A stretch of DNA of 64,000 nucleotides from Ruaniaceae bacterium KH17 (GTDB lineage: Bacteria > Actinomycetota > Actinomycetes > Actinomycetales > Actinomycetaceae), in contig FZQV01000007.1 in assembly GCA_900199505.1 (NCBI GenBank), positions 1-64,000 on the forward strand. Direction: 5' to 3'. The translations under genes and the position numbers were made by a program. This document shows, in pieces, positions 54,750-63,806 of this stretch. The notes below the pieces were generated by a model. The model had not been told where the DNA came from and made no database searches. It was given only the letters and a program-made list of their open reading frames with translations. Each line of letters begins with the position of its first letter. Within the stretch, counting starts at the first letter, position 1.

Positions 54750-55967
54750 CTACCCCGCGAACCTGGCCGCGGCGGCGCGAACCTGCTCGGCGACCGGTGC
54801 AACAAACTCCGGCACTTCCACCTCGACGAGTGCAGACTGAACGCTCGTCGCAACGTTGCGAATCTCAGTGCGAGCGCCGTCCTCACTCATTCCCCACGAT
54901 GCCGCCTCGCGCATAAGGTGATCCAACGTAATGTGGCGTAGCCCGCGTTGCCCGGCAACACTCATACCGAAGTCGCTGAAGCGAGGGTTCACATAGAACA
55001 CCGGCGCCACGTCGTAGGCGGGCGCGATCGAGAACAGGCCGTCTCGAAGAAGCAGCGAATAGTTCTTTGCGTGCGCGTCCCCGTTCCCGATGATGAGGTT
55101 GAACGTCACGAGCCTCAGAAGTGCATCGCGGAAGAGACCAGGATCCGCGGACTCCAGGCCGGGCCCGATCGCGACACGACGTAGGCGACCCGGCTCCTCA
55201 TAAGAGGACTCATACTTCTCCAGTGGCCTGATTCCCAGTGCCTGTGCGAAGTCCTCCTGGTGCAGGCGGTCACCCCTGGCACGGTCATAGCGTTCGACGA
55301 CGATCGCAAGCCGATCCCCAAACCTCTCCAAGGTGGATTTTGCGCCGGGAACTCCGGCAGCGCGCGCGAGCTCAAGCGACCAGTGCTCGAACTCGACGAT
55401 CCTGGGAATTGGAGCGGAGGGCTCGATCGGCTCCGGCTTGATGATGTGTGTGGATGGGGCGCCGGCGGCGGGCCACGCCCACCCAGCCTCCGTGCGGGTC
55501 AGTAGTAGCTTGCTCTGAACGCCACCCAGCGAGGCGGTGATGGCCTCACCCTCAGGTGCACTCAGCGTCGGAAGGTCCTCTACCAAACCGATGACCTCGT
55601 CGTCGGGCAAGGGCTTGAGATGTCCGGTGGGAGGGGCACTCTCGGGGGTTAGTTGCACCGCCCCTGCACACTCGTAGCCGATGTGCCGGAGCAGGCCGAA
55701 CGCGTCACCTGGGCGAACGCCGTTCTGGCGCTCTAGTTGCGCTCGAAGCGCTCCTTCAGGGAGCAGGTTCTCAAGATACGTCTCGATGGCGGGTCCATCG
55801 ATTCGCTTCGGCCCCAACGGGAGCGAATACGAGAGCACGCGTGCTCCATCACCCCAGCGGGCGCGGGCCTCGGCCGCGAATCGCAGGCGCGGCCGGCCAG
55901 AACGGAGTCGCTCCACCTCACCAACGTGCTCATCGTGGAGCCACAGGTTGAGGATGTCTTGGCTCAT
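54750..55967 (-). CDS. hipA: HipA-family serine/threonine kinase toxin
   Basis: This 405-residue kinase has the N-terminal couple_hipA domain (LWLHDEHVGEVERL, LSYSLPLGPKRIDGPAIETYLENLLPEG in part) and a kinase core: GGVQSKLLL, HIIKPEP with the ATP-binding lysine, VVERYDRARG, the catalytic aspartate in IGNGDAHAKNYS, and the metal-binding APAYDVAP. In Escherichia coli HipA phosphorylates glutamyl-tRNA synthetase and causes persistence. It overlaps hipB by four bases (55964-55967). Toxicity here is inferred. Confidence 0.9.
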   Translation of the reverse strand: MSQDILNLWLHDEHVGEVERLRSGRPRLRFAAEARARWGDGARVLSYSLPLGPKRIDGPAIETYLENLLPEGALRAQLERQNGVRPGDAFGLLRHIGYECAGAVQLTPESAPPTGHLKPLPDDEVIGLVEDLPTLSAPEGEAITASLGGVQSKLLLTRTEAGWAWPAAGAPSTHIIKPEPIEPSAPIPRIVEFEHWSLELARAAGVPGAKSTLERFGDRLAIVVERYDRARGDRLHQEDFAQALGIRPLEKYESSYEEPGRLRRVAIGPGLESADPGLFRDALLRLVTFNLIIGNGDAHAKNYSLLLRDGLFSIAPAYDVAPVFYVNPRFSDFGMSVAGQRGLRHITLDHLMREAASWGMSEDGARTEIRNVATSVQSALVEVEVPEFVAPVAEQVRAAAARFAG

Positions 55968-56215
55968 TGCGGGTCCTCGACCGTAACGTGCGCTCCGCGG
56001 GGGACGATGATCAGCTCGTACCCGCCACGGGCGACGGCGTCCCACACGGTCTTCGAGGAAACCGCCTCGCCGCGCTCCATCCGGGAGATAGTGGGCCGGG
56101 AACTGTTGATCGCAGCGGACATCTGCTGTTGGTCGAGTCCGGCGTCCTTCCGCTGCTGAGCCAACGCCGCGCCCAATGACACAAGCGAACGGGCTCGGTA
56201 CCACGGGCGCCTCAT
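55964..56215 (-). CDS. hipB: HipB-like helix-turn-helix antitoxin
   Basis: This 83-residue protein has a Cro/C1-type helix-turn-helix (LDQQQMSAAINSSRPTISRMERGE, about residues 27-50) and a short beta-rich C-terminus. It precedes and overlaps hipA, the usual hipBA order. It should bind its own promoter, where TTGATTCAA-type sites are present. Confidence 0.88.
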   Translation of the reverse strand: MRRPWYRARSLVSLGAALAQQRKDAGLDQQQMSAAINSSRPTISRMERGEAVSSKTVWDAVARGGYELIIVPRGAHVTVEDPQ

Positions 56216-56217
56216 AT

Positions 56218-56288
56218 TTGATTCAACTCCTCATCTGGGTGTGATTGATCATTTCTGATTCATCTTACCTTCTGGACGAAATGAATCA
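56218..56288. promoter_or_regulatory. Candidate HipB operators
   Basis: Three related sites occur: the palindrome TTGATTCAA (56218-56226, overlapping the hipB leader), TGATTCAT (56256-56263) and its inverse ATGAATCA (56281-56288). They are spaced across the AT-rich 70 bases upstream of hipB, fitting autorepression. Confidence 0.55.
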
Positions 56289-56320
56289 AGAGTGAGTCAC
56301 AGCAAACTTGCCCGAGCAGA

Positions 56321-56635
56321 CTAGAACGTGACGGCGGTGCCGGTGCACGCCACGAGGAGCATGTTGCCATCGCCGATCGATGAGTAGTCGAGCTGGATTC
56401 CGACGACCCCTGTTGCACCCATCTGCTGAGCGCGCTGACCCATCTCGGCGAGCGCGGACTCGCGCGCTTTGATCAGCTCGTCCTCGTAGCCCTGTGAACG
56501 CCCGCCCACGAGATTGCGGAACCCAGCACCGATGTCCTTGAACATGTTGATGCCCGCCACGGCTTCGCCGGAGACCAACCCGAGGTAGTTCGTGATGGGG
56601 TGGCCCTCGACGGTGTGGGACGTGGTCATGAACAT
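56321..56635 (-). CDS. YbjQ-family (DUF74) protein
   Basis: This 104-residue protein belongs to the YbjQ/heavy-metal-binding-domain family: TNYLGLVSGEAVAGINMFKD, GGRSQGYEDELIKARESALAEM and the conserved GATGVVGIQLDYSSIG. Structures of relatives show a pentameric beta barrel; function is unknown. It is divergent from the small membrane protein gene at 56729. Confidence 0.88.
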   Translation of the reverse strand: MFMTTSHTVEGHPITNYLGLVSGEAVAGINMFKDIGAGFRNLVGGRSQGYEDELIKARESALAEMGQRAQQMGATGVVGIQLDYSSIGDGNMLLVACTGTAVTF

Positions 56636-56728
56636 GAGCGATTTCCTTCCGGTGTGCGGGCGGCCGCAACACTGCGACGTGCCTTTACTCTACGGCGCGG
56701 GCTCAGGTGCTGGCGCTACGGTGGAGGC

Positions 56729-57046
56729 ATGTCATTGAGCGTCTTGGTGTTTATCTTTCTCGTCGTAGGCGTTGCTCTCATTGGCGGGATCGCTGCTATC
56801 GCGTTCTGGTTCGCGACGTCGTCGCGGCGCGGGCGCCCGGCGAAGGAGACCCCCGAGCAGTACCTCGCGCGCACATTCGATGGGCGCCCACATGTGGTCA
56901 CCTATGGCGACATTCCGCTGCCAAGCCAGGAGGCCGTCGTCGGCGAGGCTTATGCCCGTGGGTACCAGCTCGTTCAGGTGGCCACGGTGGAGGGACAGCC
57001 GCAGCCGACTCTCTACTTCGAGCGAATCCAGACGCAGAGCGCCTGA
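56729..57046 (+). CDS. Small membrane-anchored protein (DUF5703-like)
   Basis: This 105-residue protein begins at an ATG with GGTGGAGG upstream. One N-terminal helix (VLVFIFLVVGVALIGGIAAIAFWF) anchors a 75-residue soluble part with ETPEQYLARTFDGRP and AYARGYQLVQVATVEG. It resembles the DUF5703 family of Actinobacteria; function unknown. Confidence 0.65.
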   Translation: MSLSVLVFIFLVVGVALIGGIAAIAFWFATSSRRGRPAKETPEQYLARTFDGRPHVVTYGDIPLPSQEAVVGEAYARGYQLVQVATVEGQPQPTLYFERIQTQSA

Positions 57047-57071
57047 GAGGAACGCGCGCCCACGGTTGGCG

Positions 57072-57356
57072 CTAGCGCGGGCGGTAGGCGTCCGCGCGGT
57101 GCTCCACATAGACCACGAGGATGATCAGCCGATCGTCATGGATCTCGTACATGACCCGGTATGGTCCGCGCCTGGCACCCCACAATCCTTCCAACTCGCG
57201 CTGTAGTGGCTTGCCGACTCGTCGGGGGTACCGCGCGAGGTCTCCATAGACGAACTCGATGATCGCAGGCACGATCCGCGGAGGTACCCGTTGCAGACCC
57301 CTCCGCGCCGAGCCCGCGAACTCAACCGTGTAGATCCGGTCAGAGCCGTCGCTCAA
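57072..57356 (-). CDS. relE: RelE-family mRNA interferase toxin
   Basis: This 94-residue toxin has YTVEFAGSARRGLQRVPPRI, LEGLWGARRGPYRVMYEI and VVYVEHRADAYRPR, the RelE/ParE fold with the arginine and terminal tyrosine typical of RelE ribosome-dependent endonucleases. It overlaps its antitoxin gene by four bases. Confidence 0.9.
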   Translation of the reverse strand: MSDGSDRIYTVEFAGSARRGLQRVPPRIVPAIIEFVYGDLARYPRRVGKPLQRELEGLWGARRGPYRVMYEIHDDRLIILVVYVEHRADAYRPR

Positions 57357-57634
57357 GCGGACCTCCTCGGCACCCCGAACTCAGCGCGAATGTCATCCTC
57401 TCCGAAGGTGGTGCCGTCTTCGAGCTCACGCCGAGCTTCGGCGACATCATCCGCTGTACCGGGCCGCGAGAGCCAGAAGAGCGTCTCTTGGAGCGACTCC
57501 CACTCATCAATCCCGATCAGGACGGCGGCCGGCGTGCCGTTCTTGGTGATCGTCACTTGCTCGCGAGTGAAAGCAACTGCGTCAACGAACTCGTTGAGCT
57601 TGTCCTTGACCTTGGAGATGGGAAGAGTCTGCAT
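57353..57634 (-). CDS. Phd/YefM-family antitoxin
   Basis: This 93-residue antitoxin has the Phd DNA-binding N-terminus (LPISKVKDKLNEFVDAVAFT, ITKNGTPAAVLIGIDEWESLQET) and a disordered C-terminus that would wrap RelE. The ATG at 57634 follows GGAGG. It is the first gene of the pair. Confidence 0.9.
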   Translation of the reverse strand: MQTLPISKVKDKLNEFVDAVAFTREQVTITKNGTPAAVLIGIDEWESLQETLFWLSRPGTADDVAEARRELEDGTTFGEDDIRAEFGVPRRSA

Positions 57635-57638
57635 GCCT

Positions 57639-57683
57639 CCAGAATAGACCTGAATAGAAGTCTTAGAAAGGCCTCTATTCTGG
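57639..57683. promoter_or_regulatory. Operator of the Phd/RelE pair
   Basis: CCAGAATAG (57639-57647) and CTATTCTGG (57675-57683) are perfect inverted repeats, with another GAATAG at 57652 between them. They overlap the expected promoter and leader of the antitoxin gene. Confidence 0.6.
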
Positions 57684-57905
57684 CTCCTTGAGTCAGTTTT
57701 CAGTGTCATGACTCAAGTGGACCAGACTCTCGATCGCCGCCGCTAGGGCCTGCTGGAATCTGTGGATAACCCTCGGCACGAACCAGTAATGCGAGTCTTT
57801 TGGGCGAATTGAATGAGTCGCACGCTCGCGAGATTCATCAGGTCCAACGAGAGTGCCGACGGTGAGAATCGGTCCGCAAGAGCGTCACTCCTGCACGGAT
57901 TCGCG

Positions 57906-58352
57906 TCAACGGGTGACCGTGCGGCCAAACTCCGTGAGTTGCTCCAGCGCTGCCGCGTACTTCGCGCGTAGCCGCTCCTGCGTGTCGGGCGGGAGCGCAC
58001 CCAGCCGTACCGGATCGGTGTTGTCGGCGATGTCCGCCCGCTTGACCGCGAGCGCCAGCGGATCCGCCGCCACGCGCCGGTAGTAGTCGGCCTTCGCCTC
58101 ACCGGCCCGCTTCGTCACGGCGTCCACTGCGGCAGAGATCTGCGGCGGGAATCTCTCGGCAAGTTCGGCAAGTGTCACCGCGGTGTCCTCGACGATGTCG
58201 TGCAACCACGCGACCACCACCGCCCCCGGATCTCCCGAGACTCGCTCGGCCACGCGCCGCGGATGCTCGATGTACGCGGCCCCAGACTTATCGACCTGCC
58301 CCTCGTGCGCCGCCTCAGCAATCCCCTGCGCGGCTGCAATCAACTCATCCAT
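57906..58352 (-). CDS. HD-domain (p)ppGpp hydrolase-like protein
   Basis: This 148-residue metal-dependent phosphohydrolase has YIEHPRRVAERV, VVVAWLHDIVEDTAVTLAEL (the H-D pair) and VKRADIADNTDP, the conserved pattern of the SpoT/MESH1 hydrolase domain. No synthetase domain is attached. It may degrade (p)ppGpp or related nucleotides. The 270 bases downstream to the antitoxin leader hold no gene; a lone DnaA-box-like TGTGGATAA is at 57761. Confidence 0.8.
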   Translation of the reverse strand: MDELIAAAQGIAEAAHEGQVDKSGAAYIEHPRRVAERVSGDPGAVVVAWLHDIVEDTAVTLAELAERFPPQISAAVDAVTKRAGEAKADYYRRVAADPLALAVKRADIADNTDPVRLGALPPDTQERLRAKYAAALEQLTEFGRTVTR

Positions 58353-58564
58353 GAGCCCTCCTCCATTCCCGAAGAATCTGTCGTCTGACTCAAGTCAATC
58401 AGCCACCACTGACACGGCCACTCCCCGAACAGCATGTTGACGATCCGAGCCAATCCCGACGGCGCTCGGTCCCGTTCCGGGCTCGACCCGCCGCGCGGTA
58501 CTCTCTTTCGACTATTGCATTAGTTATGTTTATTGCGAATGATGGAAGGTGGAAGGGAACCAAC

Positions 58565-59020
58565 ATGACACCTCCAGTCATCACAGCAATGCGCCCAAGC
58601 GAGCAGGACATCACCATGGCAGTCAACGCGCTTCCACACATTAAGGAGTACCTCGCGGACCACGCTAACCCAGAGGTTCGACTCATCGTTGATGACGATC
58701 CCCAGGAGACGCTCACGGTGCCGCGGGGAGCGGTCGAACTACTCGCGCGCATTCTTGTTCACATGGCCAGAGGGCACGGGGTCTCCGTCGTTCCCGCGCA
58801 CGCCGAGCTGACAACACAGCAGGCGGCGGAGCTACTCAATGTCAGTCGGCCCTTCGTTATCGGCCTGCTGGATGCTGGCGAATTCGACTATCGGCGCGTC
58901 GGAAAGCACCGTCGCATCAAGGCAGATTCGCTCATGTCTTACATGGCGCATGATGACAGCAAGCGCCGCGGAGCTGCGGACGAACTGACCCGCCTCGGGC
59001 AGGAGATGGGGTTGATCTAG
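58565..59020 (+). CDS. Excisionase-type helix-turn-helix antitoxin, apparently without a toxin
   Basis: This 151-residue protein has an N-terminal half that is helical (DITMAVNALPHIKEYLADH) with the segment VRLIVDDDPQETLTVPRGAVELL, and a C-terminal excisionase/MerR-like HTH: LTTQQAAELLNVSRPFVIGLL and RRVGKHRRIKADSLM. Such proteins are normally followed by a PIN-domain toxin. Here the next 107 bases hold no toxin before the hsdR end. The ATG at 58565 follows GGAAGG. Confidence 0.75.
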   Translation: MTPPVITAMRPSEQDITMAVNALPHIKEYLADHANPEVRLIVDDDPQETLTVPRGAVELLARILVHMARGHGVSVVPAHAELTTQQAAELLNVSRPFVIGLLDAGEFDYRRVGKHRRIKADSLMSYMAHDDSKRRGAADELTRLGQEMGLI

Positions 59021-59127: not shown

Positions 59128-62085
59128 CTAAGCAGCCTCCGCGGCGAGCTCGTGGAAAGCCTTCGCGATGGCGAGGATCAAGGTTGTGCGCCCGGGGGCG
59201 TCGGACCAGAAGTAGTCCGCGATCACCTTGTTCGCGTTCTGGTTGTCGGCGACGGCGTCAACCACGGCCTCGTCGAAGTCGGGGCTCTCGGCGAACTGCT
59301 TGACACTGTTCACCCTCGCCTGCTGAACGAGCGCCTCGTTCTCCAGCATCCGCTCGATGAGCCCGCGGACAAACGACTCCGGCTGTGACGCCGTGAACTC
59401 CTCGGCGCCAAACAGATCATTGAGCCTGTCGATCACTTCCTGGAGCGCCACGAGCTTCGGGTCCCGCTTCTCTGCCGAACCCGCCTCGGTCATACCCTTG
59501 AGCCCAACCTTTTCACCGAGCCCCAGGTCGGTCGTGCCCTTGTCGATCTGCCGCACCGCAACGAGCGAAAGTGACGAGAGGTCAATGTCATCAGCATGGG
59601 TCCGGTCATGCAGCCGCTTGGCGAGTAGCCGGTAGAAGATCGATCGCTTCTCCAAGTCGGCACTGCCGTAATCAACGATCTGGCTCATGAAGTCGTACAC
59701 ACGCACGAAGCTGCCGAGGTCCTTAGTGAACATCGCCAGCGCATCCAACTCGGCTTTGTCGTCGGCCAGAACCGCATTGGTCCTGCGGGCAGTGAATCGC
59801 TGCACCGCAGGCGCGAACGCGGAATCGAGCGCCTGGTTCCCCTTCTTCTTCACCCATGCATCGGCCACAGCATCGATATCACCGGACTCATAGATCCCTG
59901 CCGCGTCCAGCTTGGAAGCGGTGTCGTGGACAAGGTTCGGGTCGGTCGCGGTCTCCAGGAACGCGTCGGTGAAGTACGGCTCAAAATCAGCTTGGATCTG
60001 CTCTGGCACGTTCACGAAGTCCACGATCATCGTCGTGTCCTTCACCTGTCCCGACGGCGTTCGGTACGTTCGGTTCAGCCGCGAGAGGGTCTGCACGGTC
60101 GTCACCCCGGAGAGCCGGCGGTCAACATACATCGCACACAGTAGCGGCTGGTCGAAGCCGGTCTGGAACTTGTTGGCAACGATCATCACCTTGTACGCGT
60201 CACCCCGGAACGCCGTGCGCAGGTCGCCCGCGCCGGGATTCATCGAAGCCTCCGTTGCGTCCTCGATGCCGTACTCGACGTCGCTGATCGAACCAGAGAA
60301 CGCGACAAGGGTCCCGATGTCGTAGCCCTTGAAGGCGACGTACTTGTCGATCTCCCGCTTGTAGCGGATGGCCGCGAGCCGCGAGTCCGCCACAACCATT
60401 GCCTTGGCATGGCCTTCGAGTAGCCCCGCGACGTTCTCGCGGAAGTGCTCCACAATCAGCGCGGACTTCTGGGCGATGGTCTGAGGGTTGAGTTTGACCC
60501 AGCGCTTGACGCGCATCGTCGCCTCGGCCTCATCCACCTCGACCTCAGACTCAGCGGTCCCAGCAACGTTGAACGCCATCTGGAACGAGTGGTAACCGCG
60601 CAGCACATCGAGGATGTAGTTCTCCTCGATCGCCTGCTTCATCGAGTAGATGTGGAACGGCACCGGGAGCCCATCAAATGAGCCCTCTGGCACCCGCCCG
60701 AACAACTCCAGCGTCTTGGCCTTCGGAGTCGCCGTGAACGCGAAGTAGGAGATGTTGTCCGACGACGCCCGCTCACTTGCCTCCGCCGCAAGCAACGCCT
60801 CAACGTCAATCTCGCCGCCATCCTCAACGGCGGAAATCTCCTCGGCAGTCAGCACAGCCTTGAGTTCGGAAGCTGTGCGACCGGTCTGCGACGAGTGCGC
60901 CTCATCGGCAATCACCGCGAACCGCTTGCCCTTTAGCCCAGAGCTCTTGCGAATCTCCGCCATCACGAAGCCGAACGTCTGGATCGTGCAGACGATGATC
61001 AGCTTCCCGCTGGTGAGGGCTTTGGCGAGAAGCCCCGACTTCGAGGTGGCGCCCTGCTTGCGGGCCTCATCAATGTCGATCGCCGCCACGATCCCGGCGT
61101 AAGCCTGCCCCTGCTGGGCGCTGGCGTCGATCTGCTTGATGGCGTCCTGAAGCTGGGCATCAAGCACGTTGCGGTCGGTGATCACGATAACCGAATCGAA
61201 GACCTTCTCGTTCTCGACCTGAAGCCGGGCGAGGCGGTGCGCGGTCCACGCAATCGAGTTTGTCTTCCCCGAGCCAGCGGAGTGCTGGATGAGATAGCGG
61301 TGACCTGGGCCTTCGGCGGCGACGGCCTCGGTCAGCTTCGTCACCACATCCCACTGATGGAAGCGCGGGAACAGAAGCGTGGACTTCTTCACCTTCGCGC
61401 CGGAGATCGGATCGAGCTCCTCCTTGGTCTCCAGATGCAGGAAGCGGCCGATGATCCCCAGCCAAGTGTCGCGCTGAAGAATCTCTTCCCAGAGGTAGGC
61501 CGTCGCCGATTTCCCGCCGACAGCTGGTGGGTTACCCGCGCCTCCATCGAGAGTGCCGCGGTTAAACGGCAGGAAGTGTGTCTTCTCGCCGGCCAGCTTG
61601 GTGGTCATCCACACCTCGTCGTTGGACACGGCGAAGTGAACGAGTGCACGTGTCCCGAAACCGAACAACGGCTGAGGCTTGCCCGTGGCAGGGTCCTTCA
61701 CCGGACGAGCAATCTTGTACTGAGTGATCGCATCCTTCACCGACTGCGTGAAATCGGTCTTCAACTCCAGTGTCGCCACAGGAAGGCCATTGACGAATAA
61801 CACCAAGTCGAGCGAGTGGTTGGTCGCGGTCGAGTAGTGCACCTGCCGCATCACCCGGACACGCACCTTCTCGTACCGCTCAACCGTGACCGGGTTCAGG
61901 GTCGACTCCGGCTTGAACTGGCACATATCGAAGCGAGCCGAGATGTGAGCGAAACCCTTGCGTAGCACGTTCAGCGTGCCGCCGCCGGACTCCAACGGCG
62001 TGTCGAGGACCTTCACCAGCCTGTCGAGAACCTGCGCCCGCTGCTGCTCCTCCCGAGCCGAGCCCGCCGTGACCACCTTCGCCAA
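59128..62085 (-). CDS. hsdR: Type I restriction enzyme R subunit, cut off from its first codons by an amber stop
   Basis: HsdR cleaves DNA after ATP-driven translocation by the HsdRMS complex. The remaining frame (985 codons from a TTG at 62085) holds the nuclease domain (VATLELKTDFTQSVKDAI, the E-x-K), helicase motif I HSAGSGKTNSIAW, motif II VIADEAHSSQTG, FAFTATPKAKTLELFG, IVANKFQTGFDQPLL and TLSRLNRTYR, and the C-terminal helical domain. The natural GTG start at 62244 is followed ten codons later by TAG (62214-62212), after which 42 more codons of matching sequence lead into this frame. The missing first part makes the protein probably inactive. No HsdM is in the window. Confidence 0.85.
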   Translation of the reverse strand: MAKVVTAGSAREEQQRAQVLDRLVKVLDTPLESGGGTLNVLRKGFAHISARFDMCQFKPESTLNPVTVERYEKVRVRVMRQVHYSTATNHSLDLVLFVNGLPVATLELKTDFTQSVKDAITQYKIARPVKDPATGKPQPLFGFGTRALVHFAVSNDEVWMTTKLAGEKTHFLPFNRGTLDGGAGNPPAVGGKSATAYLWEEILQRDTWLGIIGRFLHLETKEELDPISGAKVKKSTLLFPRFHQWDVVTKLTEAVAAEGPGHRYLIQHSAGSGKTNSIAWTAHRLARLQVENEKVFDSVIVITDRNVLDAQLQDAIKQIDASAQQGQAYAGIVAAIDIDEARKQGATSKSGLLAKALTSGKLIIVCTIQTFGFVMAEIRKSSGLKGKRFAVIADEAHSSQTGRTASELKAVLTAEEISAVEDGGEIDVEALLAAEASERASSDNISYFAFTATPKAKTLELFGRVPEGSFDGLPVPFHIYSMKQAIEENYILDVLRGYHSFQMAFNVAGTAESEVEVDEAEATMRVKRWVKLNPQTIAQKSALIVEHFRENVAGLLEGHAKAMVVADSRLAAIRYKREIDKYVAFKGYDIGTLVAFSGSISDVEYGIEDATEASMNPGAGDLRTAFRGDAYKVMIVANKFQTGFDQPLLCAMYVDRRLSGVTTVQTLSRLNRTYRTPSGQVKDTTMIVDFVNVPEQIQADFEPYFTDAFLETATDPNLVHDTASKLDAAGIYESGDIDAVADAWVKKKGNQALDSAFAPAVQRFTARRTNAVLADDKAELDALAMFTKDLGSFVRVYDFMSQIVDYGSADLEKRSIFYRLLAKRLHDRTHADDIDLSSLSLVAVRQIDKGTTDLGLGEKVGLKGMTEAGSAEKRDPKLVALQEVIDRLNDLFGAEEFTASQPESFVRGLIERMLENEALVQQARVNSVKQFAESPDFDEAVVDAVADNQNANKVIADYFWSDAPGRTTLILAIAKAFHELAAEAA

Positions 62086-62211
62086 CTCGTCAGGCTGCGC
62101 ATCCGCCAGCCAGCCGAAGATGTCTTCGGGGAAAAGCGCCCGCCCACGGTCATAGCCGGAGTCGTTCGGCGAGCAGAGCCAACCATTCGCGGCGAGGTGC
62201 TCGGCAATCTC

Positions 62212-62244
62212 CTACTCGAACTTGATCTCGTTGTAATCAGCCAC
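62212..62244 (-). pseudogene. Severed 5' end of hsdR with in-frame TAG
   Basis: Read from GTG at 62244, the frame gives VADYNEIKFE followed by TAG, then EIAEHLAANGWLCSPNDSGY in the same frame. Relatives read FE-(E/D)-EIAEHL here, so one G-to-T change in a glutamate codon explains the stop. The GTG overlaps the vapC stop. Confidence 0.75.
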
Positions 62245-62663
62245 TAGATAACCACGACGTCGAGCTGGGGATACCGGGCAGAGAACTTACGATCCAGGGT
62301 TGTCAACGAGGCCGACGACGCGAGGGCGAATGCCGCGAGATAGTCGTCAGTCCACAGTTTGTGACTGTGATCGTCAACTGCGGAGAGGCTACGGAACTCA
62401 GCAGTCATCCCAATCGGCTCATCGCACCAGATGAATCGTTCGTCGGACAGCAACTGATCCAGGGTCGCCCACGCCTGCTGCCGGGTGAGGACATCATCCT
62501 CAAGGACGGCAGGGATTGTCAGAAGACGCAGTAGCCCCATCCCGGCAACCCGGCACACCATCAGCGGTGTCGACGCCGATTCCAGCCACTCTTGTGCCCG
62601 ATCATGTGCAGCGTGACCGTCCCATGTCAGCGCGAGGAGCGGGCCGACGTCGAGCAGAGTCAC
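62244..62663 (-). CDS. vapC: VapC-family PIN-domain ribonuclease toxin
   Basis: This 139-residue PIN protein has acidic residues at LLDVGPLLAL, in a middle E of GMTAEFRS, at WTDDYLAAFALA and at TTLDRKF, the set of metal ligands of this fold. It overlaps vapB by four bases, and its stop overlaps the old hsdR start, so the module sits in the restriction operon. Confidence 0.87.
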   Translation of the reverse strand: MTLLDVGPLLALTWDGHAAHDRAQEWLESASTPLMVCRVAGMGLLRLLTIPAVLEDDVLTRQQAWATLDQLLSDERFIWCDEPIGMTAEFRSLSAVDDHSHKLWTDDYLAAFALASSASLTTLDRKFSARYPQLDVVVI

Positions 62664-62911
62664 CCGAGGCCACCGCGGCGCATGTCATCCGCTTCTTCTT
62701 CGGCGGCCAGGATTGCGTCGATCTCGTCTTGGGTCTTACGCGGCCCGGTCGACTTAACAAGAGGGAACGAAACCCGCCGCCCCTGTTGAGGCCTGCCGAT
62801 CTCTGTGGAGACGGCGCGTTCGAACAGCTCCTTGAGCGATTCACCGCGCGTCGCGGCCCGAGCCTTGGCAGCCCGCATCAGCTCGTCAGGCAAATCAACG
62901 GTCGTACGCAT
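62660..62911 (-). CDS. vapB: VapB-family ribbon-helix-helix antitoxin
   Basis: This 83-residue antitoxin opens with the ribbon-helix-helix MRTTVDLPDELMRAAKARAA and ends in a flexible acidic tail (QDEIDAILAAEEEADDM) that should block VapC. It begins 17 bases after the hsdS stop. Confidence 0.87.
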   Translation of the reverse strand: MRTTVDLPDELMRAAKARAATRGESLKELFERAVSTEIGRPQQGRRVSFPLVKSTGPRKTQDEIDAILAAEEEADDMRRGGLG

Positions 62912-62928
62912 AAAAGCATATTACCAGT

Positions 62929-63505
62929 CTAGGAAGCGGATCGTACGTCGATTTGCCCAGTAACCGCAGCCGTAATCAGCGCCGACCGCCGTTCCTTGGC
63001 CAGCTCGATAAGCCGTTCAGCCTCGGCAATAAGCCTGTCCATCTTCGCGACCTGCTCATCCAGAGACTCTCCTATGGCTCGTTGCTCATCCAGTGGAGGC
63101 ACCACGATCGGAAGCCTGAGAAAGGTCTCCGGGTAGAGTCGCAAACGAGACTCCCAGATGCCGCGGGAGTGACGAGTCATCTCCATAACATACGGCCGTG
63201 ATCGGTATAAATAGTCAAAGTACGTCGGGTCGATCTCGGCACCGTCGCGGGGCCGATAGACCCCGTAGGCGGGGCTAACGACGCCCGATAACGGCGACAT
63301 CCCGAACGCCCCCATCCATGCCCACATCGTATTAATCACCAGATCGCCGGGCGTAACGAGCCGATAGCCTTCGAGGCTCTCGGACTCGATCATGTTGACG
63401 TTCTTCTCCGACCTCCGCGTAATACCCGTGAGGTGCGAGACCGTGAGCAGCTCTTCGTTGCCATCCGTGGACAACTCGGTTGCTTCAAAGAACAGTTCCT
63501 TATTC
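62929..63505 (-). pseudogene. hsdS: Type I restriction enzyme S subunit, C-terminal half only
   Basis: HsdS normally has two target-recognition domains (400 or more residues). Only the second remains: ELFFEATELSTDGNEELLTV, GDLVINTMWAWMGAFG, SRPYVMEMTRHSRGIWES and PPLDEQRAIGESLDEQ, followed by the long conserved coiled coil (AEAERLIELAKERRSALIT). The first recognition domain is missing, replaced directly by a ParE-like toxin gene in another frame. A TTG at 63474 could start a 181-residue half protein. Confidence 0.75.
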
Positions 63506-63806
63506 CGGGCTCGCCGCCAGTGGGCCGGCGTCGATCATGCGCGTATGCGATCACGATCAGCTCGCGGCCCTGCACAAAGTACACAACACCGTACGGGAAG
63601 CCATCAACACTCTTGCGCCGGACAATGGGGAGGTTGTGACGCTCGTGCGATAGCGGCGCCGCTTCCGGCCACTCACGTATGGAGTCGACGGCGGCTTCGA
63701 GTGAGTCAGCCAACCGGTCTCCCAGCCCAGCCCACTGATCGTCATACCAAACGAGAGCGTCAAGGTACTCGGCACGCGCAGCGGGATGTACACGCCATGC
63801 CAGCAT
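63390..63806 (-). CDS. ParE/RelE-family toxin with a chimeric 3' end
   Basis: The first 95 or so residues are a ParE-like toxin (MLAWRVHPAARAEYLDALVWY, WPEAAPLSHERHNLPIVRRK, GVVYFVQGRELIVIAYAHDRRRP). Family members stop soon after this motif. Here the frame runs on for about 40 codons out of phase into the hsdS fragment. A single-base shift near 63525 would give HWRRAR, closer to the usual end. It follows the addiction-module antitoxin by three bases. Confidence 0.7.
   Translation of the reverse strand: MLAWRVHPAARAEYLDALVWYDDQWAGLGDRLADSLEAAVDSIREWPEAAPLSHERHNLPIVRRKSVDGFPYGVVYFVQGRELIVIAYAHDRRRPTGGEPGIRNCSLKQPSCPRMATKSCSRSRTSRVLRGGRRRTST

Follow-up and report, generated by a model that had tools for sequence, protein, structure and literature searches.

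The hsdR gene of Ruaniaceae bacterium KH17 is best explained, with a probability of roughly 0.86, as a recent nonsense pseudogene lying in what remains of a fourth Type I restriction-modification system. A functional system of this type has an uninterrupted hsdR, an HsdS with two target-recognition domains (TRDs), and an hsdM. In the window, by which we mean the whole stretch of 64,000 nucleotides analysed here (positions 1 to 64,000 of contig FZQV01000007.1), hsdR is interrupted by an in-frame TAG at codon 11 and hsdS is represented by a half only, and the cognate hsdM was found neither in the neighbourhood nor in the rest of the genome. HsdR acts only within a complex with M and S.

Results

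The hsdR frame (59128..62244, minus strand) starts with GTG at 62244-62242, and minus-strand translation confirms the amber stop that the sequence-only reading had placed at its codon 11 (62214-62212). Translation from 62244 gives VADYNEIKFE*EIAEHLAANGWLCSPNDSGYDR..., and then continues uninterrupted to the stop at 59130-59128, which leaves 1,027 codons open downstream of the TAG. The HSDR_N, SWI2_SNF2, ResIII, and T1R_D3-like domains all score above the Pfam cut-offs in the product and identify it as a Type I HsdR, and PADLOC labels it REase_I. The earlier claim that the frame matches HsdR on both sides of the TAG was also borne out, by alignment with relatives, and the frame is not a chance one. 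D146, E160, K162, and Q175, which we take to be the nuclease residues, the first three presumably with catalytic roles, are invariant across 50 aligned HsdR sequences including the KH17 copy. Against solved structures, KH17 HsdR aligned only locally and weakly, with EcoR124 HsdR, and these matches did not assign residues 12-53 to a fold. The gene exists as one copy in the 2.72-Mb, 72-contig draft genome.

The codon at 62212..62214 is a sense codon in every relative read. Among public genomes, 56 of 79 relative loci were read at codon 11 and none has a stop there, a count in which one locus (L074) is misplaced by an insertion and the register is uncertain in distant rows (e.g., L081, L084, L087, L088, and L105); the same holds for all of a further 11, one of which (L154) duplicates the L070 record. 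The three closest relatives (L031, L096, and L032), whose HsdR is 81-87% identical to that of KH17 over the available parts, have Gln at this position, so the GAG (Glu) codon that had been expected from the KH17 sequence is not favoured. Lys, Arg, Glu, Thr, and others occur elsewhere, and this variability shows that the site tolerates change and that the damage comes from the stop, not from the loss of a critical residue. A relative close enough to date the TAG was not found among one genome of the genus, which sets the scope for dating both the stop and the deletion described below, one IMG/VR locus at 66% identity, and PLSDB plasmid matches of 67% at best. The IMG/VR locus (L192) is a contig of the viral collection that carries a relative of hsdR.

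The body of hsdR is well preserved. In the alignment of 50 sequences, KH17 HsdR is altered at 1 of the 170 columns that are invariant in the 49 relatives, and when each of those 49 was left out in turn, it differed at 0 to 9 invariant columns; the fragments L096 and L049 were left out of this count, and an open-frame/motif filter removed L053 and L085, of which a recheck found the former open over its entire match and the latter truly broken. The ratio of nonsynonymous to synonymous private changes on the KH17 branch is 13:76, compared with 8:34, 18:83, and 27:65 on three other branches, showing no excess of amino-acid changes, and the pairwise dN/dS against the closest relative is 0.09. When unconstrained change was simulated, as few altered invariant residues appeared in ~1.7% of 300 runs at 1% substitution and in zero runs at 2%. 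Constraint on hsdR has either been lifted very recently (~1% neutral change or less in the simulation) or is still in force, and the invariant-column, branch, and simulation tests together exclude an old pseudogene. The absence of decay in the remainder of hsdR makes the losses caused by the TAG and by the deletion both look recent. It counts against the remnant reading, however, that a well-preserved body is equally expected of a gene still in use.

The half hsdS (62929..63534, minus strand), recognised by homology and PADLOC, is a 201-aa frame with its first possible start, TTG, at 63474, and comprises one TRD and the C-terminal conserved region. Its product resembles the N-terminal half of certain PADLOC profiles but the C-terminal half of others, and it can be matched to either half of the HsdS of relatives. 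Homology to the HsdS of relatives starts at a PxxW motif (PAHW...), beside 63528, and the homology of a ParE-like toxin frame (63390..63806, minus strand; profile and homologues) stops at the same point, with ...AHDRRRP. The normal C-terminus of the toxin is replaced by out-of-frame hsdS sequence, and the [GN]YW motif and short tail with which the frame continues in all seven parE homologues examined (of nine found, its own copy excluded) are missing in KH17. These breakpoints place a junction of parE with hsdS, in different frames, at 63522..63534 (no strand assigned), presumably the scar of a deletion. The sequence-only reading was right that the adjacent specificity gene is broken, but it understated the damage: hsdM is gone as well, which makes the whole system a remnant.

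The contig runs on past the window to 92,116 bases, and no hsdM was found between the window end and unrelated chromosomal genes, where the sole gene is an HTH/antitoxin-like one beside parE. A search of the whole genome with the hsdM of L096, the closest relative locus, returned three matches only, at 30-33% identity. Each match falls in a separate Type I locus (contigs C58, C26, and C46) that contains HsdM-, HsdS-, and HsdR-like genes. The fourth HSDR_N match of the genome is the hsdR described here. Since the three other loci have their own M, S, and R, and a cognate hsdM is absent, the locus appears to be what is left of a fourth system.

Between the half hsdS and hsdR lie genes for a ribbon-helix-helix (VapB-like) antitoxin (62660..62911) and a PIN-domain (VapC-like) toxin (62244..62663), both on the minus strand and assigned by Pfam. 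The GTG start of hsdR overlaps the TAG stop of vapC (TAGTG), which suggests that the translation of the two genes is coupled. Among 52 relatives, hsdS and hsdR are at most 42 bases apart in 32 and separated by extra sequence in 13, with the spacing not determined in 7; the inserts encode GmrSD, GIY-YIG/DUF4357, DUF3800, KAP NTPase, DUF4268, nucleotidyltransferase, and other proteins. The vapBC pair of KH17 occupies the same slot as these extra genes. In L096, two small genes in the slot resemble an antitoxin-toxin pair by eye and have no Pfam match. A cluster of toxin-antitoxin genes, including vapBC and parE, extends over 54750-59020 and 62244-63806 of the window; its other members are hipB-hipA (56215-54750), a ParE-like gene with Phd/YefM (57072-57649), and a gene for a lone HTH_17 protein (58526-59020).

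Discussion

The ancestral gene order was probably hsdM-hsdS-vapBC-hsdR. A single deletion that fused parE to hsdS would explain why hsdM, the 5' half of hsdS, and the tail of parE are all missing, and in a separate event codon 11 of hsdR became TAG, presumably by a single-base change. The earlier proposal that a point change broke the restriction subunit holds for the interruption itself, and its single-base origin is plausible. Ribosomes that start at the hsdR GTG, probably by coupling to vapC, would yield a peptide of 10 residues, and full-length HsdR, if made, would find no cognate M2S complex. Two M subunits and one S form the methylase, according to the review PMC3874165. Without a cognate M2S complex, the locus is expected to carry out neither restriction nor modification of DNA. 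Selection of the stop owing to the broken hsdS, as had been suggested, and simple loss of constraint are not separable here.

An assembly or base-calling error at codon 11, with an intact hsdR in the living strain, is the strongest competitor of the pseudogene reading and is nevertheless unlikely. The undamaged body of hsdR and the 72-contig draft state of the assembly would suit such an error, but codon 11 lies in no tandem repeat that would promote one, and even an intact hsdR would not revive a locus devoid of hsdM and half of hsdS. The junction of parE with hsdS may also be an assembly artefact.

It is considerably less probable that the stop serves expression control, with readthrough or a downstream restart supplying low or truncated, still working HsdR. 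Such control would agree with the conserved body and with the position of D146, E160, and K162, which fall downstream of, and would be retained by, restart candidates up to codon 135. Against it, all 45 tRNA genes detected in the genome with a covariance model have sense anticodons and none has the CTA anticodon of an amber suppressor, and the relatives lack the stop (0/56 and 0/11); these results support neither amber-suppression recoding nor the controlled readthrough that the sequence-only reading had entertained. The next in-frame starts after the TAG are TTG at codon 54 and GTG at codon 57, ahead of which no ribosome-binding-site-like sequence was evident by eye, and a restart at TTG54 would remove residues 12-53, including G21, W22, G30, Y31, D32, and W45, which are at least 90% conserved. 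Any HsdR produced in this way would, moreover, miss its M2S partner.

We regard as very improbable that the half HsdS and HsdR function in trans with the HsdM of another locus. N-terminally deleted EcoDXXI HsdS is active as a homodimer, as stated in PMC3874165, which lends the idea some appeal, but the other HsdMs of KH17 share only ~25-33% identity with the expected HsdM, a divergence that led us to reject trans-complementation by them, and hsdR would still contain its stop. No more credible is the notion that the HsdR body is kept for a use other than classical restriction, in which a trace readthrough or restart product would act with the half HsdS at a level held low by vapC coupling and the stop. 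A phase-variable hsdR switch, also raised in the sequence-only reading, is the least credible of all: recombination in hsdS can make Type I loci phase-variable, as described in the literature, but the codon-11 site has no simple tandem or inverted repeat and the genome no second or silent hsdR copy, and this candidate was discarded.

The pseudogene reading is in line with the fate of hsdR elsewhere. Among the relatives, hsdR is broken by frame changes or stops in L085, L064, L054, G056 (L011/L024), and the second copy of G036 (L023/L030). The L085 gene is spread over three frames and contains inserted sequence, and G036 (C4) has an intact hsdR beside the broken copy, whose frame changes and is interrupted by two TAG codons. 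In Staphylococcus aureus, PMC13216270 gives stop-gained or frameshifted hsdR in 4% of complete genomes, from wild strains, and loss-of-function rates of 0.2% for hsdM and 0.9% for hsdS. Because breakage of hsdR recurs in relatives and reaches 4% in S. aureus, the KH17 finding appears to be ordinary gene loss. The main consequence is for annotation, where the locus should be entered as a defunct Type I remnant and not counted as the fourth functional barrier against foreign DNA. KH17 would be one more example of a variant deficient in restriction, seemingly at an early stage after the loss, and its parE-hsdS fusion would illustrate one route by which methylase genes are removed.

The loci of L031, L032, and L096 have hsdM and hsdS upstream of hsdR; in L096 and L032, additional genes separate hsdS from hsdR. 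Unlike KH17, they have complete hsdM and hsdS and no stop at codon 11, with the L096 contig covering the first part of hsdR only. NgoAV and the deleted EcoDXXI resemble KH17 in their one-TRD HsdS halves, but both are active enzymes according to PMC3874165, whereas no cognate HsdM was found for the KH17 half. The hsdR mutants of S. aureus show the same natural loss as KH17, but hsdM and hsdS are rarely hit in that species (PMC13216270), whereas the KH17 locus has lost hsdM and half of hsdS too. Natural loss of hsdR is already reported to be common in S. aureus. The KH17 stop, lying in a remnant of a system, most likely represents an ordinary and recent gene death, not a new form of control.
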